Source: Halichondria panicea
Lineage: Eukaryota > Porifera > Demospongiae > Suberitida > Halichondriidae
Reading direction: 5' to 3'
Assembly: GCF_963675165.1 (NCBI RefSeq)
Contig: NC_087390.1
Location: 3,362,001-3,426,000 of the forward strand
DNA: 64,000 nt
This document shows positions 3 to 64,000 of the stretch, piece after piece (position 1 is the stretch's first letter; each line of letters begins with the position of its first letter). Both the position numbers and the translations under genes were made by a program. Under the pieces are notes generated by a model, which was given only the letters and a program-made list of their open reading frames with translations, was not told where the DNA came from and did no database searches.

Positions 3-3000
3 GCAGCAAAGTACAAAGCTTTCATAGATTGTTACAATGATTTTAAACTGGTGGTCAAGATCTCACCAGAAGACGTCTGTGATCAATTGATTCCTCTTGA
101 ATTACTACCACAAGCAGTGGTAGACTACGTTAGTAATGAGGCTCATGATAGTGGTGAAAAGGCGTCTCGAATATGTAACACTGTGGCAAGCCAAATTAAA
201 ATCAATTCAGATATTGTTTTTTCTTTCACTAGTGCTCTAGAAAAAGCTGGCATGTGGACACGTCCAGCAGTCAACAAATTCAAAAAAGCACTGAAGAACC
301 GCAAGCAAGAAGAGTGCAAACAGAAAATTAACAAGCCACTTCATATACAAGAGAAACGTGAGTTATGGGGATGACTTGAGCTTGAGGGTTAATAATTATC
401 ATTAATTGGTAGTCTGCATAATTATATAGTGAAGACTTCTTTGCTCTTTAGCACAAATCTGGGTGTTGAAATAGTAACTACCGTATATGCTTGATCAGGA
501 GCCGCGGCTACTAAATGTTTATTTTGCTGGCAGAAGAGGCTACAATTTGAGAGAGGCCATTGTTCAAGAGCGGCGTTTATTAGCTCCAGCTAATTCAATT
601 AACCTTAGTTTGTCATCAAAAGTGATGCATAAACTCGAACTCTGCCATGAGAAAGTCTTCGCAAAGCACTAACAAGCTGCTACCTGCACCTAGAGTACCT
701 ACGTACATGTAGCTCGCTGCTAGTATTAATAAATGTAAATGTTTTGGCTGCCACGTGCAGAAATGCTAGAGTCAAAGTTCACTGAGGCTACTATTTGAGC
801 GGCTACTAAAGTTAATGTTTCATTTTGCTTGCCAAAGAAGACTACTATTTGAGAGCGGCCTCTGATCAAGCATATACGGTACATCATAATCAGAGGACGT
901 TGGTCACATATCATGGTAGGAATGTGCCACAACATTTGCTCTAAGTGATGCCGGCCTTAGCTTCCATTAATGCAACATTTTCTATAATTATTGTACAAAA
1001 ATGTGCGCGCATGGATAGAATAATATACAAGGAGAAAAATAGCTTCGCTAGCTAAGCCAAAAAGCTGAAAACGATCTAAATCTCTATCATGTAGTGAAAG
1101 GATGGTACTAACTTTTGGATCAGCGATCCCAGTAGGATCCCGGCTCAATAGCTTGAAATTCACCATCAAACCTTAGTGGTTTTCCCTGTACGTACGTATA
1201 GTGGGTAATTTTCGTGGGGCAAAATATTCGTGGCTTTCGTGGTTGAAGGCCTGATGCCTGACCACGAATATTTTACCCACGAATGAAGCGACCTTGCCTA
1301 CCTTTACCTGCAGTGCAAGTAGCAACCACGAAAATATTACCCACGAAATGTCTCAATATTGCTGAACCACGAATATTTTGTCCCCCGAGAATTACCCGCT
1401 ATACGGTAGGCTACTATGGAGAGCAGTCTAGGGGGGTTAACTCAGGTTAGTTGCCGTCTTTCATACCAGTTTACAATATTCGAGATTACTAGAAAGTGAT
1501 GTGAGCTTGTTAAAGAGCACAGCAGTAGATCTACCACAGGCACCATAGCTACACACTGAAATGTAAGGACAGGTTAAAGGTCAAAAGCCTAACGTAAAAC
1601 ATTTTATGCCACACATTCTATTGCCATGTGACTTATGACACGTGTCCTTCCTCCTCTGACCCATTCTAGCATTTGTCTGAGGAGGTTGTTCACATAGCAA
1701 AATGTTTTACTGAGGAATGTGTGTCCACGGAGACAGAGAAAAGATATACGGAAATTTGCAGAGAAAAGTAGCTGTCCTAGCTAAGCCACAAACGACCGTA
1801 GCCTTTTATATACTAGTACTAATGATGCTAACAAAATACTCATTATGACTAGAAAGTGAATAGCATAGTCATACTCGAATCAATGAGCCAGAATCTTGTG
1901 ATTAGTCACAAACTTCCAGTTGTTGCTGCACTTTCCTTGTTTCTTTGACTCTTGTCTTAAATCTTAATGTAGCAGGTGTAGCAACAATAGTTTTACGATT
2001 CATTAACAGGAGACGTAATACAAGAAAGATAAAACGCTAAAAAATGCAAAAATGAGATAAAGATAAAGTGCTGACTTGTTGGGTTGGGGTTCCTTTTATG
2101 GTTTCGTGCATTTGCTGTAGATTCAGGAATTTGAGGTTACAAGAAGATTAATTATCAATTGTGAACAACCTCCTCTGAGCTTTTGTACTGAACAACTTAT
2201 ATAATTATATATAACACTAATTATTGTTTTACAGGTCGACCAGTTGTGATTGTCCTAGCTGTTTTGCTTGCAGCAGCTTTCATTGGAGGAGCTTGTGTGT
2301 ACATGTACTCTAGTATGTCGAAAAGTCAAGAAGGTAGATTAGAGTTGTACGATGCTCTTTCTCAGCAAAATGTACCCACTATAAATAGCCCCTTTTTTGG
2401 TCGAGCCAAAGAACTAAAAGAACTTAAAGAACTTATTATCTCAAATTCTATTCGCATTATCAATATCAATGGTCCACCTGCTTTTGGAAAATCCAGACTG
2501 GCAAATCAATTGGGTCATGAATTACTGCATCATTCTGATGTCATTCCAAACATTCGATACATAGATACAGCGACTTTTAGGAAGTCATTTTATCTCTGTA
2601 CAATCAGCACTTCACAAAAACAAGAAAGTAACAGATATTCAGATACACATGCTGTAGCTGACACTGAGTCTCTAGAAAATAGTGGTCAAGGTGTATATGA
2701 CGACAATTTTTGTACATGGATTGCATGGCAGAAAAAAAGAACTGTACTGATATTTGATAACTGTGACCCAATCCTGCACAGTAATGATCGAAAGCTGTTT
2801 GTAGATATGCTTCAAACATTTCTATCAATGAATGTCCAGATATTTAATGTGGTAGTTGTATCTCAAGAACAGTTGTCTTTCATAGAGGATGGTTTTTACT
2901 CAATTCATCTGGAAGCACTTTCACCAACGGATTCTCAGGCTATGCTAATGCATTACGTTCAAAACTTAACTACTGCACAAGCCAATGAGCTTCACACTGT

Positions 3001-4765
3001 TGTTGGCGGTTGCCCTCTGGCACTAAAGGTTGTTGCAAAGCTTCTTTGCAAAGGAAAGGGTCTTCAGTGGTTATTAGCAAACCTGAAGCGAAATGTAACA
3101 TTAACATTATCTAAGTCTACAAGAGAAGAGGATCAGTTGCACAGAGTGATTGACATTGCTTTCAAAAATTACATGGACCGTCAGAGTAGGAAATGTGCTC
3201 GTATTCTGAGCCTATTTCCAGGGTCTGTGAGTGAAGAGATGGCAAACAGTGTCTTATCTGAAATTGTAAAAAACCCGTTGTGTATTGAAAATGTCACACG
3301 TTTGTCGTTTTTGGAGGAGTTTTCAATCGAAGAGTTACAAAGATTTTCTATCCACACTGTTATTCAAGGTTACCTTCAATCTGTGCACGTTATCCAGTCT
3401 GATATAAAAGCTTTCAATTCATCGTTTCTCAGTTTCTATTCTGACTATTTGATAATTGCACTGAAGCAGAGATACATGTATGCTGATCCAAACGCAAGCG
3501 ATAAAGACAATTACCTATTAAATGATTTGGAATCTCACAATATGAATCAATTTGTACCAATACTCCTATATACAGACATTGATAAAGAGAACCTTACGTT
3601 ATATTCCGCAATAGCCCTAGGCTTTCTAATCCATGAGAAAAGGATACCTGACACGTACGATTATGAGGTTATGCTAAAAGCATACTACTTATACAGCAAT
3701 TCCTCAATATTTGACAGTCTTTGTGCTTATTCCTCCAAAGAGGTGTGCACGAGCATTTTCTCGAAATCATTTTCGGTTCTTGAAGAACATAATGGATGTA
3801 ATAGCTATTTTTCCTACATTTCGAACTTTTTCTTTTCTCACCCGATATGTTTTCAACTCTACAATTGCTCCAATGGTGCTTCCAGCTATACTTGTAAGTT
3901 ATTAACTAAATTAGAATGGATACAGACTTTTCTAACTCCCACAAAAACTGTTTTACTGTTTATAATATGTTTGGTGCTAATAGTGTATAAGGGGAAATTT
4001 GATAGTTTTGGTCCGGTTTTGCTGCTATTAATACTATCTGCAATTGTGTTCTACTTTCCGTGGACAGTCAACTTTTATGTGTGGGGTCAATTGTTGTCTG
4101 GGTTTGGGTACAACACCTGCATCAGTATTTCATATTATGTTGAGGAATGGCAATGTACTCACCTACCTACTTCCTTCATCAACAACACAATGTCAGACAT
4201 GTGTAACAACACAGCTTCGATTGTCGAGGAACATGGTATGTTTCTTGTAATTATCAGTATGGCAGTTCCCACAGTCGAGACACTATTAATCCATATAATC
4301 TATAGTATGCTTGCTAAACCCATCACCCGCAGTAGTGAAGATTTAATCTCTAAAATTGGTGGTATTTCTTGTATTTTTAATTTGACTATTCCGCTTATGA
4401 TTGCCTGTTTTGCTGTCTCTATATTAATTACCTATCCCACAATTTTTTACGCCATATACATACTTATTAACATGCTACCCCTTTTGTTTGGCTACATTAT
4501 TTACTTCATTATTTACTTCAAAAATAGTTTTGTATATCTATCTCTGCTATCAAACAATCAGGTTCGGATTGAACTATGTAAACTTATTACAATACTTATT
4601 ATGTTATGTTTTGCAATCATGCTTTTACTTCCTGTCTGTGTGGCATATTTTATTTTTATTTGTAATTTGATAAGTTACTGTGCACAATATTTTATTCAAA
4701 TTTTTATTCAGCTTTTTATTCACTCTAATAATGACCAACAAAACAGTCTTATTTTATATTACTGA
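3..4765 (+). CDS. CARD-like / TM / NB-ARC STAND ATPase / multi-pass membrane protein (5' partial)
   Basis: The coding parts are 3-357 (open at the window edge) and 2235-4765, joined by a phase-1 GT-AG intron (donor GTGAGT at 358, acceptor ACAG ending at 2234) that completes an Arg codon; this gives 961 residues. The first exon reads as a CARD-like helical domain (SPEDVCDQLIPLELLP, then ...FTSALEKAG) followed by a basic linker. The second exon starts RRPVV and a hydrophobic helix, then an NTPase with P-loop GPPAFGKSR (about 2471-2497), a Walker-B-like stretch TVLIFDNCDP (about 2738-2770) and GGCPLALKV, the GxP motif of NB-ARC domains. After a helical region come roughly six membrane helices (about 3950-4700), with NNT glycosylation sequons in a loop near 4180-4215. 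By family knowledge, STAND ATPases are switch-like oligomerising sensors, so an innate-immune or cell-death role is inferred. The combination is not one I recognise. The N-terminus lies outside the window. Confidence 0.75.
479..881. mobile_element. MITE-like element with TACCGTATATGCTTGATCAG TIRs
   Basis: A 20-bp terminal repeat at 479-498 is repeated as its perfect reverse complement at 862-881. The interior also carries a diverged direct repeat: a block with GGCTACTAAA, TTTATTTTGCT and a TTTGAGAGAGGCC-like end near 503-562 recurs at about 785-860. There is no transposase frame, so it is a non-autonomous element. Confidence 0.75.
1194..1408. mobile_element. MITE-like element, TACCGTATAGCGGGTAATT family
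   Basis: The ends are TACGTATAGTGGGTAATTTTCG (left) and, in reverse complement, TACCGTATAGCGGGTAATTCTCG (right). The interior contains several copies of a CCACGAATATT/AATATTCGTGG word in both orientations, so the whole element can fold. Related ends occur at 24362, 26945, 52158 and 55681. It is about 215 bp and non-coding. Confidence 0.75.
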
Positions 4766-5136: not shown

Positions 5137-8100
5137 CTAAACATCAATAACATAATAGTCTTTGCCTGAATACTTAGTTGTTGGGTAACCTGGATTGTTC
5201 GTGGGACCTGTGCTTGAAGTGGGAGTGGCTCGGTTTGTACTTCGTGGATCACCGCCTCCTCCTTGAGCCACTGGAGGTTGAAATTGAGAATTGGGGTAAG
5301 AAAAAGTGTTTGCTCTTCTCTGTACTTGGGAGGCCGGCCTTGTATCAGCAACAGTTGCTCGTCGCTCCATCTCAACACGCCTTTGATCAGCTGCCTGTCT
5401 TGAGTACGGCCGAGAAGGCACACTTCCTCTGTGTCTTTGTTCCATATCGTATCCAGTAGCAGAATGGGAACTGAGTTTAATTCGTTGACGCTCAAACTCT
5501 CGCTGTGTTTCAATCTCTCTCTGTCTCGTTGAATCGGGCTGTCTATTTCCGGACACAGGTATGGAACCACTTCTCTGTACTCCTGTCGGTCTGCCTGATC
5601 CAGGCCTAGAACTAGATCTTGGTTCTTGTGTGTGAGCATTTTCATCAAGGTCATCAATGGAAGCATACACAGGAGCTTGTTTCTGGTACGGCTTTGTAGG
5701 AACAGTCATGTTTGTGTCTTTTTTCATAGGCGGTGCCTTTTCTTGACTGCGTTTTGTTTGTGAATTAGTTGATGACTGTTTCATCCAATCAAGCACTCGC
5801 AATTTACGACTCCCTTTCACCTCCAGTTCCTTGAGATGTTCTTGAAATGATGCGTTTTGGGCCTACAGATAAACAGAATAGAAAAACAGTAACAGTGGTA
5901 CATCTGATAGAATAATAGCCCAGGTGTGAGTGTGTCTAACTGAGGTTAAACTCAAGAGATACTGTTCATGCATGCATGGGAAACATTAACTTAAACACTA
6001 TTCAGTGATGTACACGAAACAAACATGTATATAGTCCTGCATGGTATATAGCAGGTTGAAACTATGTAACAATAACAAACAATAAGGTGACAGCCTGCAA
6101 ATTACGTAACACAGACTGGTTGTAGTAGACTTACAGTAGGTGTCTCAAATTTCATGGCAGTAAGGGGGAATTTTAACCATGCATACAAGACTTGCATGAG
6201 GAGCACAGTGGTATTAAAATAAAGTAATCGTCAATGAAATGTAGAATAGACTCTGGCAGATTAAGGGGAACAGGTTCATAGTCCATTTCTAAAAGCAGCT
6301 AAAGCATTAGGAAATAGATACGTATACCGTATAATTATCTTCTAATTTATCGGACAGCAAAAAATAATTATTTTGGAAATTGTCCGGGTATAATTGGAAC
6401 AGATTTTTATAGAGCATGCGAAGTGTCCGGAATAATTAGAACAAGCAAGCAGCTGCATGCGAGCTAGCTAAGTTTAATAGAACAGGGTACGACTGAAGAG
6501 TTGCACTAGCTATCTAAAACTAGCTAATCAAAGCTATCTAACTGCAGTACTGTAAGTCTTACTTGCCGTCTATGAATGATAACTCAACTTTTCAAGGTAT
6601 TGTCTGGATATTAATTTTAGTAATATTAAAGTACTGGAGTGTCCGTTGTATTAGAACAACGAAAATTGCCCGAAGGAGTGTCCGGGGTAATTAGAAGTGT
6701 CCGATAAATTAGAAGATATACGGCACTAGATTTAGTCACAGCACCATAAACACTGTATCAGGAGCACTCCTAACCTCGAGACCAGACCGATTAAAATACG
6801 GCCTGGTCTCTATTGCATGGGTGATAGTGCACATGGGCGAATTGAGTCACCCAGAATCTGGGTGACTCGTTATACTTTAGTAAACCTTATACCGTAAACT
6901 AGTTTGTTTACTAGTTTCTTTCCGTATTAATTTTAACAAATACTTGTCTCCTGTGAAGTTGTGGCTTATGCTCTCTATTGCGTTGTCGAGAAGACTTGCT
7001 GGCTAGATGTTTTGAACTTGGTTTCTGTACAAATGAGAGCTTCTTCTGGCTTCAGACTAGTGTGCAAGCCTTCTCAACAACACCATAGAGGGCCACAGCT
7101 AGCTAGCTAGGCTATAAAGCTTCATATACATGTACATAGTAGATAGTACGTGGGCGTGTATGGACCACGCCTATGATTAATTACACATGCTAGGCCGTAT
7201 TTTAATCGGCCTGGATTCGAGGCTAGAGCACTCTTGACGCTATGCATAATTACTGTTTGATATACACGTTTTATTATCATTACACACGTACCTGTGTAGC
7301 AGGAGAGGGTGTGTCCCTGTCATCATTAGGATTATTAGTGATGAAATAAGTGGGAGAGTTTGGCAGCGAGTCGTCACTTATTGGTGATATTGTCGGACGT
7401 TGCTCTTCATGTGGATAGCGATTGGACCATCCTGAATCTCGACCGGTACTAAACGTCTGTGTCCTACGAACATCACCTCCTACATGTCCCCCCTGCGATG
7501 GAGGCCTGTAGTTTCGAGACCGTGGATTCGCTTGGTTATAGCTCTTCAGTTGCCCAGTTTCAGGCCGTGTATTTTGCCCCTGTGTAGTACCAGAGCTGGT
7601 AAATGGAGGTGGTTGTTGAAACCGTGTTGATTTTATGACCTCGTGATTCTGTGAAGGAGGCAGGTTAACTCTAGTTGGATAGGTAAATGTATTTGGGGCC
7701 AGATCACTGTGGGTGTGCTGTGACATAGGGGTTAACGGAGTGCTCGGACTGGGAGGGGGGCGGTACGCAGTGGGAGTGGAGCCCAGGAATACGGTAGGTT
7801 CCGTTGAACGTCGCTGCTGTGAACTGGAGTAGCCAACTTGCTTTGTCTCTGGTTCATCAAAATAGTTTGTGTTCCAAGTGTGTGCAAACTGTTTCTGTTC
7901 TTGAAGTGGATCCGCATTTCTTTGCGCGTATTTCAAAAGGCCTGTCGATTTATCATTTTCTATAAATGAAGATCGTTTATTTGGCTCTCGAGTAACGACC
8001 TCAGGGTACACAAGGCTTGTTTGGTACTGCTTGTGAGCTGCTTTTGGTGTGTCGTACACAACTGCATCGGAGCTACTGGTAGTTATGGTAACTGAAGCAT

Positions 8101-22948: not shown

Positions 22949-23312
22949 CACAGTCGAGGCAATCTTTTACAGTACTATTGCACACAGTCTCCAGCTCTCA
23001 CGTGCAAATCCAGCTAAAAGGAGTGCCCTCGACTCGAACTCAATCCACCCCTTTCTTGGTGTGTTTACACAGATGCTACCCTACATTCCGAAGATGCCAA
23101 TTACCAATAATTATATTCATGATCACGTTGACGCACACATGCTCTGGACTTTCCCTACCATTATTCCAAGAAAATCAATGTTTGTGGTCAACAAATTCTC
23201 CCACATGTCTGGTGTCCGGTTATAAAAAGCCTGCAGTCGCCAAGCTGAACAAAAAAAACTTCAGCAAGCTTTGAATAGTAAAGAATAAAAAACTCATACA
23301 AACAGTATTGAA
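22949..23312. promoter_or_regulatory. divergent promoter region between FERM gene and Rnd-like GTPase
   Basis: Only 364 bp separate the two start codons (22948 minus, 23313 plus), so both promoters and 5' UTRs must lie here unless there are upstream non-coding exons. A TATA-like TATAAAAAG is at 23221-23229, about 85 bp upstream of the GTPase ATG. No equivalent TATA box is evident for the FERM gene. Confidence 0.55.
23221..23229 (+). promoter_or_regulatory. candidate TATA box of the Rnd-like GTPase gene
   Basis: The sequence TATAAAAAG matches the TATA consensus and lies 84 bp before the start codon. That spacing would allow a 5' UTR of roughly 55 nt if transcription starts about 30 bp downstream. 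Confidence 0.4.
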
Positions 23313-23918
23313 ATGGACCGACGAATTGTACTGATTGGAGATGCTGGATGTGGCAAGACCGCATTGGCAATGAAAATGTCTGAAAACATCTTCAATGATT
23401 TCTACCAGCCTACAAGCTTCGAGAACTTCCAAGCTGAGCTCCCCACTAACAAAGGACGTTGCCAAATCACCATTATGGACACATCTGGCTGCCATGAGAA
23501 CACACAGCTACGAAAGCTGGCTTACAAAGAGTGTGATGCTGTGATTGTTTGCTTTGATCTCACTGATGAGGAGACACTCACTAGTGTAGAAAAGAAATGG
23601 ATCCCTGAATTGCGAGAGTATTGCCCACAAGTTCCAGTCTTCATTGCTGGCTGCAAACGTGCTATTATGTGCGAAAATAATTGCTGCTGTGGAAGAAACT
23701 GTTGCATGCAAACTGAAGAGGAGCTGCTGAGAATTGTGAGCAGTACTGGTGCTATGGCCTTCCTTGAGTGCTCAGCAGCTGAGCCCATCTCTGAAGATGG
23801 AGTCGAAAATCTATTCAAGTTTGTTGTTGAGTCTTCTGGCAAGAAAAAGAAAAGCATTCTTACATCTATCAAGAAACGATCTAAGCAGCTCAAACGACGA
23901 CTCTCGATTCACTTCTAA
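23313..23918 (+). CDS. atypical Rho/Rnd-like small GTPase, 201 aa, intronless
   Basis: The protein starts MDRRIVLIGDAGCGKTALA, a normal P-loop, and follows the Rho pattern: an effector region around FYQPTSFENF, switch II with MDTSG in place of DTAGQ, then CDAVIVCFDLTDEETL and KKWIPELREYCPQVPVFIAGCK. DTSG is characteristic of the GTPase-deficient Rnd proteins. The guanine-specifying (N/T)KxD motif reads CKRAIM, lacking the Asp. The Rho insert region is replaced by a Cys-rich segment (CENNCCCGRNCCM, about residues 114-126). The SAK-like motif reads ECSAAE. The C-terminus is strongly basic (KKRSKQLKRRLSIHF) with no CAAX box. The alternative is a degenerating retrocopy, but a full-length frame, a TATA box and conserved structure favour an active gene. 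The likely role is actin or membrane signalling, possibly without GTP hydrolysis; nucleotide binding itself is uncertain. Confidence 0.85.
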   Translation: MDRRIVLIGDAGCGKTALAMKMSENIFNDFYQPTSFENFQAELPTNKGRCQITIMDTSGCHENTQLRKLAYKECDAVIVCFDLTDEETLTSVEKKWIPELREYCPQVPVFIAGCKRAIMCENNCCCGRNCCMQTEEELLRIVSSTGAMAFLECSAAEPISEDGVENLFKFVVESSGKKKKSILTSIKKRSKQLKRRLSIHF

Positions 23919-30800: not shown

Positions 30801-33800
30801 AATTAAGCGTGTACTTCATCTTCAAAGGATATAACTATCATTATAAATGCTGCCATGGTCACCTTCCGTCTAGGAAAGACATAATGTATATTCATTGGAT
30901 AATTAAGGGGAACAAACACTTAAGAAAATGTGCAAGGGATATATAATCACATGACAAGCATTCTCGCACTCATCTACAAGCTACGGCACATTGGAAAGGT
31001 CATCCTGAGAGCTACATGGCACATTAGAAAGGTCATCTTGAAAGCTACATGATGGCACATTGGAAAGGTCATCCTGAGAGCTACATGGCATATTAGAAAG
31101 GTCATCCTGAAAGCTACATGATGGCACATTGGAAAGGTCATCCTGAGAGCTACATGGCATATTAGAAAGGTCATCCTGAAAGCTACATGATGGCACATTG
31201 GAAAGGTCATCCTGAGAGCTACATGATGGCACATTGGAAAGGTCATCCTGAGAGCTACATGATGGCACATTGACCTTTCCAATGTGCCACATGTCAATAT
31301 TGCACCAAGGGCGAGCCTTTGGGGCGTCGATACGCCTTTGGTTGCACACACAATCACTCTGCACAGTTTGTTAAACTGTTGTGTGATGGTTTAAATTGGT
31401 TACAGCTAAACAAAGGACTAAAAAATCTGTATACATAGCTTAAGACCTAGCTGACACAGGCTCATGGAACTTAATTCCCAATCCATGAGCGTTTATATAA
31501 GGTTCTTTACACAGCCTATAGCAATTAATGGGGACGTGAAAAATATGACAGGACCAGCTTAATGGCCTTAGCAACTCTTCAACCACAGCTAGGGTCATGA
31601 CAACAGTGGATCTATATAGCACAATATCAACTCAGTTTAGTACATGTTGTAATTCAAGGAACATTTTCATCGACTACATGCATGTAGATAACAATAAGAA
31701 ATACATCACAGAGAATTTACTATAATTATGGAAAAGCCGATGTGTTGTCCAGCTAACAGCTCTAGTAATGAAAGCACCAGATCCTCAGTGTATGTCTCGC
31801 AATAGACGGCTAAACATTGAATATTTACATAATTACGGGAATGATGGACCTTGGACTGTTGCTCAAAAAGATGTATACAGTTAAACGCCCACAACTATTA
31901 CTTTGAAGATTGCATCATAAGCAGTTAACATGTTTATTTGTGGGCATGGAAAGCAATGAAGGAAAGGGCAACTGTCAGCAAATAATTGTATTCACGATCA
32001 ATGAATCAACTTCGCAGGGCAAGCTCTAGTTGACACTCTCACCCTATTCCATGCTTGAAATAATTCCCCTATAGCAACATTCACACAAGACAATAGGTAA
32101 TCATTTGATCTCTTGTAGCATGATGCATACACACTTTATTTATGCGGCAAGCTTGGGGGATTGCAAGTACACTAAACGTAGACAGTTAACAGACAGTATG
32201 CAAATAGTTGGTTTACAGTCGATTGGGTTTTCACTTAGAAACACTCTAAACACTTAGAATACAATGCACATAGGAACGCTCACACATGCTTAGGTCGATA
32301 GACTGTAATGAGGTCAAATACCTATGAAAATGAACAGATACGCTTGGCTACACTGTGTGGAGTTAGCAGCTTCTTTATGGAAGGGGCTGTGAACTAGAAT
32401 GCATGCTTCAGACAATCCACAATTAACCTTGTGCATTGAAGCGTGCATACCCGCCCTATGAATGTGTGTACATCAAGGGCTGAGATGGCTGCAGTATGTG
32501 CAGTGTAATGCAGCTAGTGTAATATCTCTATTTTGGCCATGCATGTACCCTATCAGCAAGCTAGTCCAATAAAGATGTCCCCTAAGCTTTTTACAGGACA
32601 CCTGTGACTCCCTTTAAGCAGGTTTCACGAATCAATAGTATCAAGATGAGTGCATACCGATCAACCAGGGCCCAATTATAGCAACAGGGTAGGGCCTCCA
32701 AGACGTGGCTTGAGCTTGAGCCAGCATTTCCCATGCACCGGAAATAATTATACCTACGGTTGGCATGCAGATACTGCCATACCAGACATTCTACCCCCAC
32801 TCAATGGTTACCACATGTATCTTACACAAGGCAGATCATTGCAGCATGGTCTTCCTTTTGCTGCTGTAACCACGTTATGTGCACAACACATACAACACTC
32901 AAATACACCCCTACAAGACAAGAGGTTCTCTCTAGAGGGGGGAGGAGGGGATTTCGGGCAGAGTTGAATTTTTTGTGTCAACATGTATCTCCATAAAAGA
33001 CTCTCACCATTCTATTCTTGAGCTTGAGCTGTCTCGTGACAATCACCCTATCGGTCTGTTCCGACAGATTCGTCACACCGTATTTCCCGTATTCCTGTTT
33101 GCAGCCCAGGTCTGGCCAATACTTACAGCACCTCACTTTACCCTCCTCCACAATGCCAGTCAGCATCACCACCAGCGTAGAGTGCTGCTCCCAGACCATC
33201 TGGTGTGTGTGAGGTGTTGTGATGAGTGTGAGGTGTGTGAGGTGTGGGGTAGGAAAACTACACTGGGGCACCCCCATAGAACTGTAGAATGTGAGTTTTT
33301 AAAAATGTATTTACAGAATTGTATCTACACATGCACGTACATGTACAGGGGCAGTGGATATCAATTTTAAAATTACTAATTACCAATTAGACTCCCTTTA
33401 CACAATGCAAAAAATAAATTAAAAAAATCCTTAAACGTGTGTAGGTGGATAAAACACTCGCATTCTGTTCCACGATCCTGATAAATGAACCTCTTTGCTA
33501 CAATTACTCTATACCCACGAAAATAGACAAATTATAGATGCCAGTAACTTGAGCTTGTTATGCCAGACAATTAGGGAGTAAAGGTCTGGGGAACATGGTA
33601 TGCCATGAAATAAATACCACTGTGCATCTCATACAATAGAACACCCACCATGCAGTTTACCATGCTCGCCACCAATTAGTACAATATATACTCACCTGCC
33701 AGAAGTCCTTGCACGTGTGTTGCATGGGGCCCTGAGCCGCTATGTAGTGGTTGATCTGTCCAGTGGTGTAGATCTCCAGGTCTACCTTGTTGGCATTAAC

Positions 33801-47920: not shown

Positions 47921-49441
47921 TTACATTCCACACTTGCAATATCCAACAGCTTTGTAAAATTGATCTACAAGTCTCTTGGCCACACTACATACAAGTTCCC
48001 AGGCCTCGCTAAAATCGGCATCCTGATCCAGGCCAAATCGACAGACTTGAGTGCCTGAGGGAAGCAGTACAGGAAGTAGGGAGACATGTCCACTGGAACC
48101 GTTAACCTGCCGAACCAACTCTGAGTTCATACGATTAAAGTTGATGCCATGTATGGTAGCAGCCTCCTCAACAGACACTCCGTATTCCACAACACCTGTC
48201 ACACGGAAATCAACACAGCGAGATTTCAATTCAATAAGCTCAAATCGAGGATCAGACAAGATCAGCTTCTTTGTAGACTCGGCACTGAGGGGGTCATTGT
48301 ATGGAATTGCTAATGGTTCTAGGTAAGAATCGAGTTGCCTCTGAATAGCAGCCGTGTCAATGCCACGGCCAATGATCACCAGCTGAACAGAGAACGTTCC
48401 ACTAAGGCTCTTGCTAACACTCGTACAAGGAACAATCTCGTAGCGTTGTCGACCACTCATGTGAAAACTATACAGGCAAGATCGATTCTCATCAAACCAG
48501 AGAGTACCCTTCATTCGAGTGATGCCTTTGGGGAATTTAGAGCCGAGGAAAACTTGAAACAATCCGAGAGAAAAAGGTTTTGAACTCTCAAACACCAACG
48601 AGCTAAATTCATCTTCTGCAATATGGTTTTTGATGTCTTTATCCTTGTTTGACTCCTTGAGACGGTCTTGTCGCACTTTGTTCATCATCCCACCGATGCC
48701 AATCGTGTAGGCAGCACTGGATGCTTCATGAGATACCACAGTCTCCACTTTAGCCACTTCGTCTACTTCCATTATGTAATTCAGGGGAACAGAGCACTTT
48801 ACACAAGCATGGATTCGGGCCCCAGGGACATGATTTCGAATGAATTCCTCAGCAAGCTCAAACTGCGAAGGAGAGATGACATCCCTTTTATTGAGTAAGA
48901 CGATATCTGCACACTGTAACTGACTATCTGCTGCTGCGGACTGCAAAATATTCGGCTCTTTAGCTTCGATTCTTGACACAAGAGCATCAGTATCCACAAC
49001 TGTCACGACGCAGTCCAATCGAATTCGATACATCTTGCCGTAATCTTGCTCGAGCGTAGCAATAGTGGCTTGAGGGTCGGTAACACCACTTGTTTCAATT
49101 AAAAGGTAATCAACTTTGCCGATGTCAACATCTTGGAGAAGATTCCACACTGCGGATTGAAACTCTGAGGATATAGAACAACATAGGCAGCCGTTGGTCA
49201 GCTCTACGACGGAATTGTGCTGTTTGTTGCCTCGTACTATCTGACCGTCTACATTGAGTGATGCAAAGTCATTCACAGCAGCCGCAACCTTTAGATTATG
49301 CTTGTTTGAGAGAACGTAGTTAAGGAGAGTTGTCTTTCCTGCACCTAGGAAGCCAGTCACTAATGTTACAGGGAGGTTTTTCTTCTTTGGGGCCCAAGCA
49401 GCAGCCTCTCTGTGGGCGTACAAGTTACAGATGTTGTCCAT
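47921..49441 (-). CDS. G3E-family GTPase / CobW-domain putative metallochaperone, 506 aa, intronless
   Basis: The start is ATG at 49441 (MDNICNLYAHREAAAWAPKK). The N-terminal half is a G3E GTPase: Walker A GFLGAGKTT (residues 30-38), the metal-binding GCLCC (84-88), ETSGVTDP (116-123) as the Walker-B-like motif, and NKRD (184-187) for guanine. After a 60-residue insertion comes the CobW C-terminal domain (KGTLWFDENRSCLYSFHMSG, then FSVQLVIIGRGID). The end is unusual: FYKAVGYCKCGM adds a CxC pair. By family knowledge, COG0523 proteins use GTP to deliver zinc or cobalt to client enzymes. The motif AVNDFASLNVD with VVELTNGCLCCSI resembles the bacterial and algal branch more than the animal ZNG1/CBWD branch as I recall it. 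The absence of introns, unlike its neighbours, fits either a retrocopy or transfer. The frame is intact throughout. Confidence 0.9.
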   Translation of the reverse strand: MDNICNLYAHREAAAWAPKKKNLPVTLVTGFLGAGKTTLLNYVLSNKHNLKVAAAVNDFASLNVDGQIVRGNKQHNSVVELTNGCLCCSISSEFQSAVWNLLQDVDIGKVDYLLIETSGVTDPQATIATLEQDYGKMYRIRLDCVVTVVDTDALVSRIEAKEPNILQSAAADSQLQCADIVLLNKRDVISPSQFELAEEFIRNHVPGARIHACVKCSVPLNYIMEVDEVAKVETVVSHEASSAAYTIGIGGMMNKVRQDRLKESNKDKDIKNHIAEDEFSSLVFESSKPFSLGLFQVFLGSKFPKGITRMKGTLWFDENRSCLYSFHMSGRQRYEIVPCTSVSKSLSGTFSVQLVIIGRGIDTAAIQRQLDSYLEPLAIPYNDPLSAESTKKLILSDPRFELIELKSRCVDFRVTGVVEYGVSVEEAATIHGINFNRMNSELVRQVNGSSGHVSLLPVLLPSGTQVCRFGLDQDADFSEAWELVCSVAKRLVDQFYKAVGYCKCGM

Positions 49442-56650: not shown

Positions 56651-59600
56651 TTATTTGTGATCTTTACCAAATGGGCGATACTCCATACTATTTTCGTCCG
56701 AGTCCGAATCCTCCTCTCTATTGGTGAGCTCAAAATCGTACATGTTGTTCTCACCACTCAACCCAATTGGATCAAGAATACCAACAGTGCGTCTCTTCTT
56801 TATTTTTCTAACGAGGTTCACGATGATGTATGTGATTATGTAAAATAGAGGAATATTCATGACTATAACCAAGAGTGTACTTGTGAAGGGAATTGTGCTG
56901 TCATCACTCGTACCAGTAGTGGGATTAATGTAATCATAGTTGAACCACGAGATCTTGTTAACCACTATCAGGTTAAAGAAAAGCAGACCATCAAGAATAT
57001 TGTGCCAATGCTCACGATAAGGCTGCGCAATGGCATGAAAAAGGAGGAAGGTTGTCAAAAAGACATCTAACATCATATAACGCTGGGTCAGCCTAGGAAA
57101 AATAATTGTTAAAATTATCAGAACTCTGTAAAGAAAATACATGCCAGCAAAAACCCTGCAATGGTCCTTAAAGCAGCTCTGAAAAGAATCCAAGAAAGGC
57201 TTCAGTTTTGCATATGGTACATGAAAGAACACTTTAGCAACCGGATTTGTGTCACTACATCGAAGGATATTCAACACTTTAAAACAGAGCGGATAAATTA
57301 GGAGTAACAATGTAGGAACAGTCATGATAACCATGCACAGAACTGCAACGACTGCATATTTGATATGACCTCCAGAGAATGGTTTTAAATTCCCTTGACG
57401 AAACACAGCGTAACCGTGAAACATGTTTCCTTTACCCATTACATTGCCGATTTCAAGAATCTGACAGCTCACACTGATACATTGAGAGAACACAATCACG
57501 AGTACAGAGGACAAACCGTGGATAATATACGACCTGAACGTTGAGTGGCGAAAGCACTGATACTTCTGTAGGATGTTGCAGTACTTGGTTAGAGCAACTG
57601 TGAGACACACCAGAATGATTACATACACAACAGTCACAAACTTGAAAACTAACAAATCCATGGTTGTAGCTCCTGCCCACAGGCAAAATGAAAGCTTATT
57701 ATGACTAAAGAAATCAAAGTTGAACATATTGTAGATCATTCTTGATATTGTGTACAAGTAGAACACTGGGTCTGGGAATATGACAAATGATTTGCCAGTG
57801 ACAGGAAATGAATGGATTACTTGTGCAAACCATATGAAACCATTGATGGCACCGGACGTAAAACTCACATTGAAGAGAGTTGCTAGAACAAACAGAATCG
57901 TCAGCGGTAAAAGTTCAGAAATTATGTACAAAAACCACCCATAGTCACATGATTCATTGCTACCACAGTGATAACTTGTTCCATGATAAAGAACAGAGAA
58001 ATTCGAAGTACACTCCCCACATAACCTGCCTGTTCGATAGTTACCACATACGACCTGGCTCAAATGTTCCTTGGAGCTAGGTAGCAAAAGTGTCTGATTA
58101 AACGTGTTGGAACAATAACCACTTGGACAATAACCGTATTCAAATGTTTCATTATGAAATCCAAACCAGTATCCTTTTTGTAAAAGAGCACGGAAACTAG
58201 ACCTTTTGCACTCCTTAATTGGTTCAAAGGCTGCTCTAGCAACATAAGAGCTGCACACACATTTATCATTGGCTTTACCATCAATATCAGTATCAACATC
58301 GTCAAAAACATACCCTGGGGGACACTCCAGCAGTTTGACATTCATGTCCAGCATAATCTCACGATAGCCTAGCTTCTGCAGCCTTAGCACACCTTTACTT
58401 CCAGGTTCTCCATGTAGTCGCATTTTTCTGTTTGATATGTACGTGTAAGGTTGGTTGATTCGAATATTTGATTTGTTTCGATTTTCAATTGTGGCATAGT
58501 ACACAGCATTTATTTTTTGGCCGAAATCATTTTGAACAGATATTGGTAGTTCAATTTCTCGTCCAGGATAAAATTTAAAGAACTTCTGATCAATATGACG
58601 TGATTCTCCTAATAAAAATTTTCCTCCAGAAGTAGACACTTGACATTTGATATCAGGACCCTTGAAAATAAATTCTCCAACACACTTGAAGGTGTTCCTT
58701 TGATCACGATGATTTATACAAGTACTGTCACAGTTTAACGAAATGGAAATGCAAGCATGAATACAAGTAAAAAGAGAGGGGGAAAAAATTGCATGTCCAG
58801 ATGCATAGCATTCGGAATGGTTTCTAACAAGATAGCCAGCAAAGTTATCGGTAAACGTAAATGTTACATTCTTTTCACGTTCAGAATCTATGTTGCCATG
58901 GTACTGAATAAAACAGCTTCTGGAGGACACAAAGTTATGCTTGTCAATATTGTAAGCATACAAGGCACCACCCCTTCTTGTAGCGTTGTTTTTGGTGAAG
59001 TGAAATGTATTGTGCTCCATCACAATCAAAGCTGAAAATCCCACAAACGAAATCGCTCCACCTTGGAATCCACTGTTACCAGTAAAATCGCATACACTTT
59101 GTGGTCTTGTAACAATTGTACTGGAAGAGAGGTATATTGCTGTTCCTGAATTATCCCTAAACACGATTGAACCACTAAACGTCACATTGAACTTAGTAAG
59201 CATCATTGCACCTCTACCATTAACGTACTCGGTGTAGCCGTTCCCTGGGAAAAATTCAACTGGACCAGCAGAGTTTGATCTGAATTCACAATTATGAAAT
59301 GTTGGAATGGGTAAAAATCCACTTGACAAAACTTCCCATACATGTGGAGCAATATCAATAGCTGAACCAAATCGTGCTTTGTTACTGATCCACTTACAAT
59401 CCTGAAAGTGAATATTGTTTTGCAAATCAGAATGTGATCTTCGACTAGAATACACTCTCACACCGCCACCATAGGTAGCCTGATTACTCACAAACATACA
59501 GTTGTCGAAGTTCACAGTATTGTTAAGTACCTCAGCAATATTGAAGCCTAAATCGATGCCACCACCACCATAATCAGGACACACATTTTCTTCCACAGTC

Positions 59601-60586
59601 AGATCTTCCAAGAGAATAGTGTTGTGGCTGCTATAGTCTTGAACTACTATGTATACACCGGCACCCCAGTTTGCCTTGTTTTGCCTGAACGTAGAGTTGC
59701 GTACAATGATTGTATTAAATTGTGACTCTCCATTAAGTTGAATAGAGAGACCACCCCCTCTTCCGAGACCCTGGTGATCCAATCTCTTCCTTTCTTTTGT
59801 GTATTGAATAAACTTTGGGCCCCAAAAGAAAGCAGTGTTCTTTTCAAATGTACAATTTACAAAAGTATAGTCATTTCCCTGTGCTCGTGTATTCCCTGTT
59901 TTGTTATCGAAGTCAGTGCAATAGATACCGGGGGTACATACGGTTAGCTCCATATAAATTCCACCACCTCGAAATATCTTGTCATGTTGGATGATATTAT
60001 TTGTGTTATAGTCAAAAATCGAATTAATTACTTTGACACTTCCACTGACATCATACAACACAAGTCCCACTCCAGAACTATTCGTAATGTGAACATTGTC
60101 CATATGGAGGTTACTACAGTTAACAGCATACAATGCACTGCTAAGCCGAGTAGTTTCAAAATGGTTTGAGGACGTTTCATTGTGAGTATACGTAGTGCTG
60201 TCATGTTCAGCACTACATTGCTCGATTTGAAGGTTTTCGATTGTCAACCCATTGACACGTACAAATTCAAGTCCTGCATTCGAATCATTGCATCTCAGCA
60301 CACTTTCAGGTTGTCCAAGAAGGGTAATGTTTGTTAGATTCTTGAAGGAAATGAGTGTAGAGATTTGAATTACACCCGAGCAAAAGCGAATGGTAGAATT
60401 ACTTACAAGGCGTTCTACAACAGCTTTGAAACCGATGGTGCATTGATTACTACAATTTGATGCACTACTAGAATCTCCAATGCAGTGACTTCTGTCATCA
60501 GTAAGCATTGAGTTCGCTAACTGGTTAGCTGCTACTAGTAGTAGTAGCAAACTGAGATACCGTAAATTCATCTTGCAGTCAGCCAT
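56651..60586 (-). CDS. secreted beta-helix ectodomain / multi-pass membrane protein, 1,311 aa, intronless
   Basis: One uninterrupted frame begins MADCKMNLRYLSLLLLL (signal peptide; Met6 could be the true start). Residues about 60-640 are a right-handed beta-helix-like region rich in Asn: recurrent FxxN and GGG(I/V) turns such as FRGGGIYMEL, GRGGGLSIQL, YGGGGIDLGF, TYGGGVRVY, FQGGAISFVG and RRGGALYAY, with many N-x-S/T sites. This resembles polymorphic-outer-membrane-protein-type repeats. A Cys-rich stretch follows (CPPGYVFDD, CVCSSYV, CGNYRTGRLCGECTSNF). From about residue 880 come eight or so hydrophobic helices (GWFLYIISELLPLTILFV to IITYIIVNLV), including REHWHNILDGLLFFNLIVV, then a charged cytosolic tail. 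It is a surface receptor, adhesion or channel-like protein by inference; no enzyme motif is seen. A divergent paralog lies at 61696. Confidence 0.85.
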   Translation of the reverse strand: MADCKMNLRYLSLLLLLVAANQLANSMLTDDRSHCIGDSSSASNCSNQCTIGFKAVVERLVSNSTIRFCSGVIQISTLISFKNLTNITLLGQPESVLRCNDSNAGLEFVRVNGLTIENLQIEQCSAEHDSTTYTHNETSSNHFETTRLSSALYAVNCSNLHMDNVHITNSSGVGLVLYDVSGSVKVINSIFDYNTNNIIQHDKIFRGGGIYMELTVCTPGIYCTDFDNKTGNTRAQGNDYTFVNCTFEKNTAFFWGPKFIQYTKERKRLDHQGLGRGGGLSIQLNGESQFNTIIVRNSTFRQNKANWGAGVYIVVQDYSSHNTILLEDLTVEENVCPDYGGGGIDLGFNIAEVLNNTVNFDNCMFVSNQATYGGGVRVYSSRRSHSDLQNNIHFQDCKWISNKARFGSAIDIAPHVWEVLSSGFLPIPTFHNCEFRSNSAGPVEFFPGNGYTEYVNGRGAMMLTKFNVTFSGSIVFRDNSGTAIYLSSSTIVTRPQSVCDFTGNSGFQGGAISFVGFSALIVMEHNTFHFTKNNATRRGGALYAYNIDKHNFVSSRSCFIQYHGNIDSEREKNVTFTFTDNFAGYLVRNHSECYASGHAIFSPSLFTCIHACISISLNCDSTCINHRDQRNTFKCVGEFIFKGPDIKCQVSTSGGKFLLGESRHIDQKFFKFYPGREIELPISVQNDFGQKINAVYYATIENRNKSNIRINQPYTYISNRKMRLHGEPGSKGVLRLQKLGYREIMLDMNVKLLECPPGYVFDDVDTDIDGKANDKCVCSSYVARAAFEPIKECKRSSFRALLQKGYWFGFHNETFEYGYCPSGYCSNTFNQTLLLPSSKEHLSQVVCGNYRTGRLCGECTSNFSVLYHGTSYHCGSNESCDYGWFLYIISELLPLTILFVLATLFNVSFTSGAINGFIWFAQVIHSFPVTGKSFVIFPDPVFYLYTISRMIYNMFNFDFFSHNKLSFCLWAGATTMDLLVFKFVTVVYVIILVCLTVALTKYCNILQKYQCFRHSTFRSYIIHGLSSVLVIVFSQCISVSCQILEIGNVMGKGNMFHGYAVFRQGNLKPFSGGHIKYAVVAVLCMVIMTVPTLLLLIYPLCFKVLNILRCSDTNPVAKVFFHVPYAKLKPFLDSFQSCFKDHCRVFAGMYFLYRVLIILTIIFPRLTQRYMMLDVFLTTFLLFHAIAQPYREHWHNILDGLLFFNLIVVNKISWFNYDYINPTTGTSDDSTIPFTSTLLVIVMNIPLFYIITYIIVNLVRKIKKRRTVGILDPIGLSGENNMYDFELTNREEDSDSDENSMEYRPFGKDHK

Positions 60587-60800
60587 TGGATCATAAACGT
60601 ACTGGTACAGGACTGTGAGAGTCTAATTATTATACAGCAAAAATATTAATTTCCCAAACAGTGGTGTTTACACAATGCAGGATTTGGGAGAAATAAGACA
60701 AAAAGTTTTGTAAAAACGTTTGATTTTGTGAACAATAACACCTGATAATTATGTGCCATAGCTGCAACATAGCTGCAACATAAGAAATATAATTATAATA

Positions 60801-61213: not shown

Positions 61214-61695
61214 TTTAGATCATTATAAGCAATCATGAGTCTCTATAGCCAATCAGATTTGAATGGTCTTTGCTACATGATTGTCTAAGTAAGTACATGA
61301 TTTTCTAAATTGGAGAGAACGCTTCCTCTAACCAATCTAATTGCAGTATTTATGGCAAACGTGATCTAAATCAGCACAGAGATTCACGCTTGTTTAATCG
61401 TTCACCTGTACTTCAGAGGAAGTTCCACTGGTATGTAAATTCACTCTATAATTATGGTATTATTCATGGATTCCTGGCTATAGCTAGATCTAAAGATTGA
61501 GCTTTTACCATTCAATCGAAACTAATTCCATAGCGTAAACATGTATAGATAACTGTTAAAAATAACAACCTATAAGTAATACTAAACAATGAAAACAAAA
61601 CATATGATTCGGGGAAATTATTACAGCTAGATGCATGGGAACTACTTTCATTGTAATTTGTTACCAAAGTGATACATCTTTAAAGGCTTTGTACA

Positions 61696-64000
61696 ATGGA
61701 AATTTGTTACCTGAGTATACTACTGTCTCTACTAGTATGTGCACATGGAGTGACAGAAAGAAAAGACAAGCAAACAGTTTTTTGTGTTACTACGGATGAA
61801 GACTCAACGAATTCATCGTGTCACACCTTGAGATACTACATGAGAAAAAGCTCATTTTTCTTCAGGAGCAACTCTACATTTATCTTTGAACCAGGTGAAC
61901 ACTTAACCAATTTCAACTCTTCGCTGGTGATTCAGAATGTTTCAGGACTTGTGCTTAGAGGACAGAATGCTACTATACAGTGCAACAAATACCAGAACTA
62001 CTTCAAGTTTAACAATGTTTCAGACCTCTTCATTCATGGATTAAAATTCTGTAAATGTGGTCAGAAATCAACAAACGGAACAAACGGCTATTCAACTCTC
62101 GGGGTTTTAAACAGCACAAATTTAAACATATCTGATGTAACAATTTGTAAATCAGAATACCAAGGAATACTGGTCAGTAATGTACTTGGTTTGACTTCAA
62201 TAGTACATTCATGTATCGTAGAGAGCCGCACAAATCGGTACAACAAGCTCGACAAACACCCAGCAAATGCCATATATTACAGTAATTGTGGCAACAACAA
62301 CTCGTCATTGATTGTTTTAGATACTGTGCTTGAAAAAAATGAAAATTTATCCCCTAGCAAGCATAATAGGATACATCAAGCCATTGAATATCCATTTGCA
62401 GCAGGCTTGACGGTAGTGATTAAGTGTTCGAATGTAGCTGTCAGTTTGGACAATATAACTGCTGACGGGAACATTGGAGGGGATGGTGGTAATCTTGCCA
62501 TTGTATTTCACACACCCGAGTTATTCAGATCGCATCACGTTGTGATAAATAACTCTCATATATCCAACGGTACAGCTATTGAAGGTGGTGGTCTCTTTGT
62601 GTCCATTGTTGAACCACGGGCTCAACGAAACAACAGTCAGATTTTGGAAAACAATCATACCATTCTCTCAATCATAAACACAGAGTTTACAAACAATACT
62701 GCTTTGTATCTGGGTGGTGCAGTTGGGATACGTCAGAAAGGGTCCAACACATCAAATTTCACTGGAAATGTTAGAATAACTAATTGCAAATTTACAGGCA
62801 ATTCTCTAAAAGAGAAAGGGCACGGAGGTATAGCTATAAACTATTTGAACTTCATCGTCACTCAAGTTGATCAGCACATCAGTCCACAATTTAGGGCATT
62901 TGTAACTAACTGTACCTTTCATCAGAATTACGTTAAAAAAAACTCGAGAATGTCAGCTGGAAGTTCAGTGATATTTGTGAAGACAACCTCACATTTTAGA
63001 CTACAAGATATTTTGATCGATTCTAATTTTGCATCAGCCATTCTTGGTTTGCAAAGCAACATTGTTTTAGGAGGAAATGTTACTCTAACCAATAACAGCG
63101 CTCAGAGCGGAGGGGGAATACTTCTTTGCCAGAATGCTGTCTTGTACTTGGAAGATGGGGTGAATGTACTGATTTCTGGCAATAATGCTAATCATGCTGG
63201 TGGGGGGATTGCAGTTGAATCAATTTGTTTGGAGTCGGAACCTATATGTTTCTTTCAATTTGTTTCACCTGAGCCGAGACAATATACTGATATAAAGATT
63301 TATGTACATGATAATCAAGCACATCATGCTGGAGACAATCTATACGGTGGATCTGTGGAATACTGCTATTTGATAGAAAGCTCAACCCACGACCTCCTAG
63401 CTAATCACAGTTTGCCTGTGTTTCAAGAAATCTTCAAAATATACTCTGCAGGGGCTGGTTTGCCTTATGTGACCTCCCCACCTGATCATGTGTGCATTTG
63501 CATCGAAAATGTTCCTGACTGTAACATAACTGAATACATTTCCCCCAAGTTGGTTTACCCTGGTCAACCATTCAATTTGACAGTGATTCTTGCTGGTCAA
63601 TTGGATGGATCTGTTCCAGGCATTATTTCAGCACAGTTGGAAAATGTTCAAGAAGATCAGAATATATCTCTTCTAAATCACTACCAAGTTCAAAATGTGA
63701 AAAAGTCCAATTGCACCACAGTGAAGTATGAGATCTACTCGAGCGAAACTGAAACTAATGTTACCTTGGGACTTGTTGCAGCACAGCAAGGAGACACTAG
63801 TGTGACTGAATATTTACGTCAATATAGAGAGCTTAAAGTAAAGGTACCAATTTCAAAGTGCCCGAAAGGTTTCAATCTTTCAGAAGGAGAAAATGGCTTC
63901 ACTTGTAGTTGCGAAACAATATTCACGCAAGCTAATATACACTGCTACATAAAACACCAGACAATCTGGGTCCCTCGAAACACTTGGATAGGTTACTTCA
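61696..64000 (+). CDS. beta-helix membrane-protein family member, paralog of the 56.6-60.6 kb gene (3' partial)
   Basis: The frame opens at ATG 61696 (MEICYLSILLSLLVCAHGV, signal peptide) and stays open for 768 codons to the window edge. It shows the same design as its divergent neighbour: N-glycosylation-rich beta-helix-like sequence with IEGGGLFVSI, YLGGAVGIRQ, QSGGGILLCQ and HAGGGIAVES turns and NNTA/NNSA loops, then a Cys-rich module CPKGFNLSEGENGFTCSC like the CPPGYVFDD...CVC segment of the other. It ends in HQTIWVPRNTWIGYF, matching the position of LQKGYWFGF there. The membrane domain presumably lies beyond the window. Sequence identity between the two is low, so they are old paralogs. 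The function is unknown; a cell-surface role is inferred. Confidence 0.85.
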   Translation, partial: MEICYLSILLSLLVCAHGVTERKDKQTVFCVTTDEDSTNSSCHTLRYYMRKSSFFFRSNSTFIFEPGEHLTNFNSSLVIQNVSGLVLRGQNATIQCNKYQNYFKFNNVSDLFIHGLKFCKCGQKSTNGTNGYSTLGVLNSTNLNISDVTICKSEYQGILVSNVLGLTSIVHSCIVESRTNRYNKLDKHPANAIYYSNCGNNNSSLIVLDTVLEKNENLSPSKHNRIHQAIEYPFAAGLTVVIKCSNVAVSLDNITADGNIGGDGGNLAIVFHTPELFRSHHVVINNSHISNGTAIEGGGLFVSIVEPRAQRNNSQILENNHTILSIINTEFTNNTALYLGGAVGIRQKGSNTSNFTGNVRITNCKFTGNSLKEKGHGGIAINYLNFIVTQVDQHISPQFRAFVTNCTFHQNYVKKNSRMSAGSSVIFVKTTSHFRLQDILIDSNFASAILGLQSNIVLGGNVTLTNNSAQSGGGILLCQNAVLYLEDGVNVLISGNNANHAGGGIAVESICLESEPICFFQFVSPEPRQYTDIKIYVHDNQAHHAGDNLYGGSVEYCYLIESSTHDLLANHSLPVFQEIFKIYSAGAGLPYVTSPPDHVCICIENVPDCNITEYISPKLVYPGQPFNLTVILAGQLDGSVPGIISAQLENVQEDQNISLLNHYQVQNVKKSNCTTVKYEIYSSETETNVTLGLVAAQQGDTSVTEYLRQYRELKVKVPISKCPKGFNLSEGENGFTCSCETIFTQANIHCYIKHQTIWVPRNTWIGYF

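Follow-up and report, generated by a model that had tools for sequence, protein, structure and literature searches.

What kind of protein does the gene at the start of this stretch of Halichondria panicea DNA encode, and do a death-fold domain, a nucleotide-binding switch and membrane segments really belong to a single product? The gene lies on the plus strand at the very beginning of the window, the whole stretch of 64,000 nt analysed here (NC_087390.1, 3,362,001-3,426,000). We propose, with a probability of roughly 0.6, that its two exons form an animal gene for a receptor of the STAND (signal transduction ATPases with numerous domains) type that is anchored in the membrane, with a predicted cytosolic CARD, a transmembrane (TM) helix, an NB-ARC-type ATPase with a winged-helix-like part, a helical domain and a hydrophobic tail. 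An earlier note on this DNA had described a membrane-embedded STAND sensor. Its combination of CARD, helix, ATPase and tail recurs within one gene family, but its view of the tail as the sensor is not borne out.

Coding exon 1 (3..357, +) is open over positions 3-374 and ends at a consensus donor (AAC/GTGAGT, at 358), with its first seven codons lying upstream of the window, from C14:3361982. DNA from upstream (L012) supplies this missing 5′ end, places the start codon 21 bases 5′ of window base 3 and recovers the N-terminus, which the earlier note had wanted; with it, exon 1 begins MSSIMSEAAKYK. A phase-1 intron (358..2234, +; GTGAGT...TTTACAG) leads to the acceptor TTGTTTTACAG/GTC at 2235, which joins exon 1 in phase 1 to a 2531-base coding exon 2 (2235..4765, +; stop TGA at 4763-4765). 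The frame containing exon 2 (2192-4765) has 857 stop-free codons, a length expected by chance with a probability of about 2e-26 at its base composition, and the predicted protein comprises 968 residues. Consensus sites, matching phase and open frames bear out the in-phase splice first noticed from the letters alone; the long exon also stands, with a count of 842 codons after the split codon in place of 839. As far as sequence analysis can tell, the two-exon CARD-TM-NB-ARC-tail gene model is confirmed as real in the window.

The architecture is not confined to this gene. A search of the own genome with the exon-2 protein gave 11 matches (G000; its contigs are labelled C plus a number, and L012-L020, L022, L023 and L060 are loci outside the window). 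Nine genes, namely the window gene and L013-L020, combine a CARD-like exon, a phase-1 intron and an exon with the first membrane helix (TM1) and the P-loop. Splice models were scored with a simple home-made consensus, and phase 1 gave the best-scoring model at 10/10 loci, counting a relative on C17; at L013 the top donor fell inside the CARD and the second-ranked donor was the equivalent of that in the window, and for L014 and C17 the acceptor upstream of the helix was picked after scoring. Two of the nine genes are damaged: in L013, an 81% match to the window exon-2 protein, the Walker A motif is changed and the frame breaks within the tail, and L016 contains an in-frame TGA. All three motifs, Walker A, Walker B and GxP, persist in 6/6 models (window, L014-L018); L019 does not match the Walker B pattern used, and the ATPase exon of L020 is split across two frames and was left unjoined. 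Beyond the nine, C8 (L022, 5238-8060) encodes an NB-ARC protein in which a helix directly precedes the P-loop and the open frame shows no tail, and the C17 gene (L060; G000:C17:1264900-1274200) has a CARD exon and a phase-1 intron followed by a helix, NACHT and LRR, and is apparently a membrane NLR sharing the family front end. After the nine genes and C8, the eleventh match of the exon-2 protein, at C14:4672442, is a stop-containing fragment of 53 residues. The further copies that the earlier note had suggested looking for therefore exist as nine genes with the same front layout plus the C8 and C17 relatives, and because CARD, TM helix, ATPase and tail recur across a gene family, their union is unlikely to be an accident of one gene model. 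None of 15 pattern matches in prokaryote genomes encodes a relative. NACHT and CARD domains are numerous in the genome: of 265 NACHT candidates, 102 were scored and all 102 matched, and 44 of the 56 CARD matches lie above the cut-off. As side observations, 20/93 matches to the window CARD exon lie in one 250-kb cluster on C12 (C12:5871854-6117750; E <= 1.2e-14, 38-51% identical, 3/20 with a stop), NACHT matches occur at C14:3251631 and 3259692, no more than 25 kb away from the paralogue L013, and long HT repeats lie upstream of the C8 protein in the same frame.

The CARD-like domain (9..293, +) is divergent and was recognised through a family profile and relatives. The window exon matches C1:5338250-5338537 (E 4.7e-11, 32% identity), which overlaps a place above the Pfam CARD cut-off (24.5 bits vs 23.9). 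A profile of eight family exons reached the C17 exon with 53.8 bits (0/5000 shuffles) and the Apaf-1-like CARD of L023 with 14.6 bits (0/5000 shuffles); the Pfam CARD scores of these two are 22.0 bits (below the cut-off, E 1.7e-4) and 41.2 bits, respectively. The same profile found the L020 CARD poorly (2.3 bits, 215/5000 shuffles), and this exon scores 24.7 bits with Pfam CARD, above the cut-off. With hhalign, the family profile matched the CARDs of C17, L023 and L020 at E 1e-10, and at E 9.5e-5 (probability 59) once C17 was left out. A first CARD profile searched against PDB had BCL10 as its top match (E 0.0035), but only with L020 included, and in leave-one-out tests 8/9 members beat all 2000 shuffles while L020 failed (84/2000 reached it). 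Since L020 appears to drive the BCL10 match, the CARD call is based on C17, L023 and C1. Scans of exon 1 with Pfam, NCBIfam and PADLOC gave nothing usable, and phmmer against PDB returned ribosomal matches at E 1.4 only. Taken together, the transitive and profile tests indicate that the N-terminal death fold of animal NLRs is probably present; the CARD-like assignment thus survives by way of relatives and the family profile, but not by a direct match from the window.

The complete ATPase core described earlier was located in full, with Walker A (GPPAFGKS; 2471..2494, +; residue 205 of 968), Walker B (VLIFDNCD; 2744..2767, +; residue 296) and a GxP-type motif (GGCPLA; 3005..3022, +; residue 383), and Pfam ATPase_2 scores 33.5 bits, just above its cut-off of 33.2. 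The NB-ARC cut-off (23.5 bits) is passed by the relatives L019 and C8, and the NACHT cut-off (26.7 bits) by L019 alone of the nine genes (27.8 bits); the window gene has no Pfam NACHT match. Against PDB, phmmer of exon 2 found no match, and a profile of six exon 2 reads gave nothing at E 0.01. Motifs and family scores nevertheless point to the NACHT/NB-ARC nucleotide-binding domain expected of an animal NLR. The helical domain that precedes the tail (3356..3886, +) is homologous across most of the family, and its C-x7-C motif (3722-3748) is present in 6/6 sequences of the alignment A1. Pfam detected no LRR in the window exon or in eight exon-2 reads of other family genes (exon parts for L016 and L020, and L019 up to its last 600 bases); LRRs were found in C17 only, and the family reads show no C-terminal LRR of the animal NLR kind. 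WD40 was not listed in the Pfam scans of the window exon and relatives, and L019 and L020 (C6 members) gave weak TPR matches.

The hydrophobic helix between CARD and ATPase, TM1 (residues 129-147; 2243..2299, +; Kyte-Doolittle (KD) value 2.89), is flanked by six K+R before and two after. By hydrophobicity, a helix is predicted at this position in 8/8 gene models, among them L016 and C17, and also in L020 and C8; TM1 is thus a constant predicted membrane feature of the family. A single helix would place CARD and ATPase on opposite membrane sides if it spans, a consequence that the earlier note, correct about the helix itself, had not drawn. The positive-inside rule favours a cytosolic CARD and, if TM1 spans, an ATPase outside: K+R within 20 residues is greater on the CARD side in 8/8 models, although the margin is only one in L016 and C17 and net charge (K+R minus D+E) is greater on that side in 6/8 only (L014 equal, L016 lower). 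An alternative to a cytosolic switch, possible but rather unlikely in our judgement, is that TM1 indeed spans, with the ATPase and the helical domain in the lumen of the endoplasmic reticulum or endosome or outside the cell, where oligomerisation would cluster the cytosolic CARDs across the membrane, as in TLR or TNFR. Besides the charge bias, the C-x7-C of all six aligned sequences speaks for this arrangement, as do the loops of the window tail, in which K/R alternate 2-0-3-0-3-0; if all seven hydrophobic segments span, alternate loops carry 8 K/R vs 0, which places the ATPase outside. On the other side, a dynamic-programming topology score over eight tails favours outside in 2/8 but inside in 6/8 (by up to 1.9 units), the window included, and the familiar STAND ATPases act in the cytosol. 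Sequons between TM1 and the tail number 53 vs 47.3 expected over the eight models, and sequon enrichment was accordingly dismissed as an argument for placing the ATPase in the lumen.

The hydrophobic tail (residues 691-950; 3929..4708, +) contains seven segments above KD 1.6 within the last 278 residues; the multi-segment end noted earlier is therefore upheld, with seven segments counted instead of about six. One loop of 58 residues (4070..4243, +) lacks K and R and contains Cys and two NNT sequons; it is mostly covered by a 200-base bin (4101-4300) that is 85.5% identical to L013, and the other tail bins of this pair share 57-59% DNA identity. The tails of different subfamilies have little or no detectable homology, whereas the preceding domain is homologous: 15 tail pairs from six representatives gave z values of -1.0 to 2.7, near shuffles (the best, window/L018, was reached by 2/200 shuffles), vs 2.1 to 31 for ten pairs of the domain before the tail, the low values being those of L018 with L015 and L016. 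Because the tails are near shuffles and the preceding domain is homologous, the tail must either be one domain that evolves extremely fast or have arisen on several occasions. A sensor role in place of LRR, WD40 or TPR is not borne out for subfamily tails with little or no clear homology, and the C8 relative has no tail in its open frame.

It is plausible, though tentative, that the tail, instead of being an old sensor domain, was gained repeatedly, each subfamily acquiring a membrane tail of its own by losing a stop or by lengthening into thymine-rich DNA, and that the working receptor is the CARD-TM-NB-ARC-helical domain part, which is compatible with the receptor proposed here. Besides the contrast in z values and the tail-less open frame of C8, genome searches with three tails found only themselves, the close pair (2/3) or, at E 0.02, two fragments that contain stops; Pfam gave no match up to E 1 for five of six tails (the sixth, E 0.18); and T content is higher in the tail than in the preceding 300 codons in 7/7. 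Thymine-rich DNA has been described as having the potential to yield membrane segments (PMC7005711). However, rapid evolution of a single shared domain would give the same picture, and the window, L014 and L016 tails exceed composition-matched random frames in segment number (reached by 8, 10 and 22 of 1000, respectively), unlike those of L015, L017, L018 and L019. In these three tails T also peaks at codon position 2, so that hydrophobicity seems to be selected at least in them. Joining both alternatives, one could imagine an inside-out STAND class in which a luminal or outer switch and sensor would drive cytosolic CARD clustering via one conserved helix, with NB-ARC and NACHT-LRR modules and subfamily-specific, non-homologous tails possibly from thymine-rich DNA; we regard such a class as unlikely.

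In favour of the proposed receptor, comparisons between gene pairs gave an overall dN/dS of 0.43 for L017/L018 and 0.50 for window/L013. Within L017/L018 it is 0.24 for the CARD, 0.71 for TM1 and linker, 0.35 for the ATPase, and 0.53 and 0.41 for the next domain and the tail, both with few changes; within window/L013 the values are 0.48 (TM1 and linker), 0.41 (ATPase), 0.39 (next domain) and 0.58 (tail). Exons are conserved and introns are not in the L017/L018 bins, with 41-52% identity in the intron, 93.5% in the bin that falls within the CARD exon and 65-99% in exon 2. From base 7000 on (last third and 3′ flank), the two loci are 97-100% identical vs 84-94.5% in the preceding ATPase bins, which suggests recent conversion or recombination of the 3′ part.

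Several observations weigh against the proposed receptor. From the window exon alone, neither Pfam nor a PDB sequence search returned a CARD match; without L020, the CARD profile searched against PDB had a SIN3 PAH domain on top and CARDs at E 0.36-0.62, and with C17 replacing L020 a SIN3-type protein still came first (CARDs at E 0.087-0.32). The structure prediction that the earlier note had proposed, a single-sequence AlphaFold model of exon 1, gave six helices at an unreliable pLDDT of 44.9. The window/L013 CARD has a dN/dS of 0.97 with no visible constraint (L013 being damaged), Pfam NB-ARC scores the window at 18.6 bits, below its cut-off, and opposite membrane sides for CARD and ATPase are difficult to reconcile with a switch that works in the cytosol. 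Finally, gene structure and protein are predicted here from DNA, and the two exons might come from different genes or the tail might be untranslated. The last 400 coding bases of window/L013 are 58-59% identical, like the 3′ flank (57-61%), and purifying selection, tested for the tail by itself, reached a Fisher p of 0.064 with approximate site counts. Such an artefact is nevertheless highly improbable, given that order and intron phase are identical at 10 loci, that about 290 further stop-free codons would arise by chance with a probability of about 2e-9, and that the tail shares 49% protein identity with L013 across 216 residues (E 1.6e-39).

How does the membrane-anchored receptor compare with known systems? 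As in Apaf-1 and CED-4, a CARD is followed by NB-ARC, here with a membrane helix between them; Apaf-1 is soluble and carries WD40 after its ATPase, whereas the window protein has predicted membrane segments and no WD40 was listed. KAP P-loop NTPases (KIDINS220) are STAND-like enzymes within membrane proteins, but their membrane segments are inserted inside the NTPase, whereas here they flank it. KAP membership was rejected, as the window protein has no membrane segment separating its Walker A and Walker B motifs and Pfam gave no KAP match. Membrane-bound NLRs have been reported in the sponge Dysidea avara, with Amphimedon queenslandica cited in the same source (PMC12909245), and one D. avara NLR for which a transmembrane domain is predicted increased upon microbial challenge (PMC6208332). 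The reported genes resemble the present family as sponge STAND genes with predicted membrane segments, and C17 looks like CARD-TM-NACHT-LRR; they are NACHT genes, in contrast to a family that resembles NB-ARC/ATPase_2, shows no LRR and has a hydrophobic tail at its end. A membrane segment in a death-fold STAND protein is likewise predicted here, by hydrophobicity. Actiniarian (sea anemone) NLRs are reported to have transmembrane domains as well, near the N-terminal end, with 3-5 segments (PMC5094078), in contrast to one segment between CARD and ATPase and a C-terminal group in our family. NB-ARC proteins are known from corals, mostly with TPR, and from placozoans (PMC10236652, PMC6321704); like the present family they have NB-ARC without LRR, and L019 and L020 show weak TPR matches, but the accessible portions of both sources mention no membrane segments. 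Given the existing reports of membrane-bound NLRs from sponges and sea anemones, the claim of an undescribed system was too strong. No description of CARD-TM-NB-ARC-tail proteins as such turned up in the partly accessible literature on NLR/NB-ARC/NACHT, transmembrane, CARD/death-domain and sponge/invertebrate proteins, which is no proof of absence.

Apaf-1 and NLRs work by nucleotide exchange and oligomerisation. For the membrane-anchored receptor we propose the following hypothetical sequence, in which all steps from the resting state to CARD recruitment are inferred by us rather than read from the sequence: (i) the resting state would be ADP-bound, by analogy with Apaf-1 and NLRs; (ii) ATP exchange would become possible once the helical domain, the tail or the surrounding membrane senses a disturbance; (iii) the ATPase domains would oligomerise within the membrane; (iv) the tethered CARDs would cluster and draw in a CARD adaptor or caspase. 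Where the signal starts would be set by the anchor, in a receptor-like manner.

Two large proteins elsewhere in the window, at 56651-60622 (-) and 61684-63999 (+), and a third at L016 1-3606 look alike by eye, with a beta-helix-like appearance and a multi-pass end; Pfam supports the first weakly and gives no match for the second, which the window edge truncates, and about 1 kb separates the third from the family member on C11. The window also encodes a CobW-type GTPase (47921-49441, -; 148.8 bits) and a Ras-family GTPase (23289-23918, +; 94.4 bits) and contains a 69-base tandem array (30985-31272; 4.1 copies, 96% matches).

In summary, descriptions of NLR and Apaf-1 type switches usually place them in the cytosol, and the present family would represent a membrane-bound twist on them. 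A constant helix separating CARD from ATPase would fix the start of CARD signalling at the membrane, as in a receptor, and an extracytoplasmic ATPase, if confirmed, would make this a rare case of a STAND switch in the lumen. Surveys counting NACHT+LRR genes alone would miss this family, and its sister genes with differing tails at the same place offer a testable case for the gain of a membrane domain.

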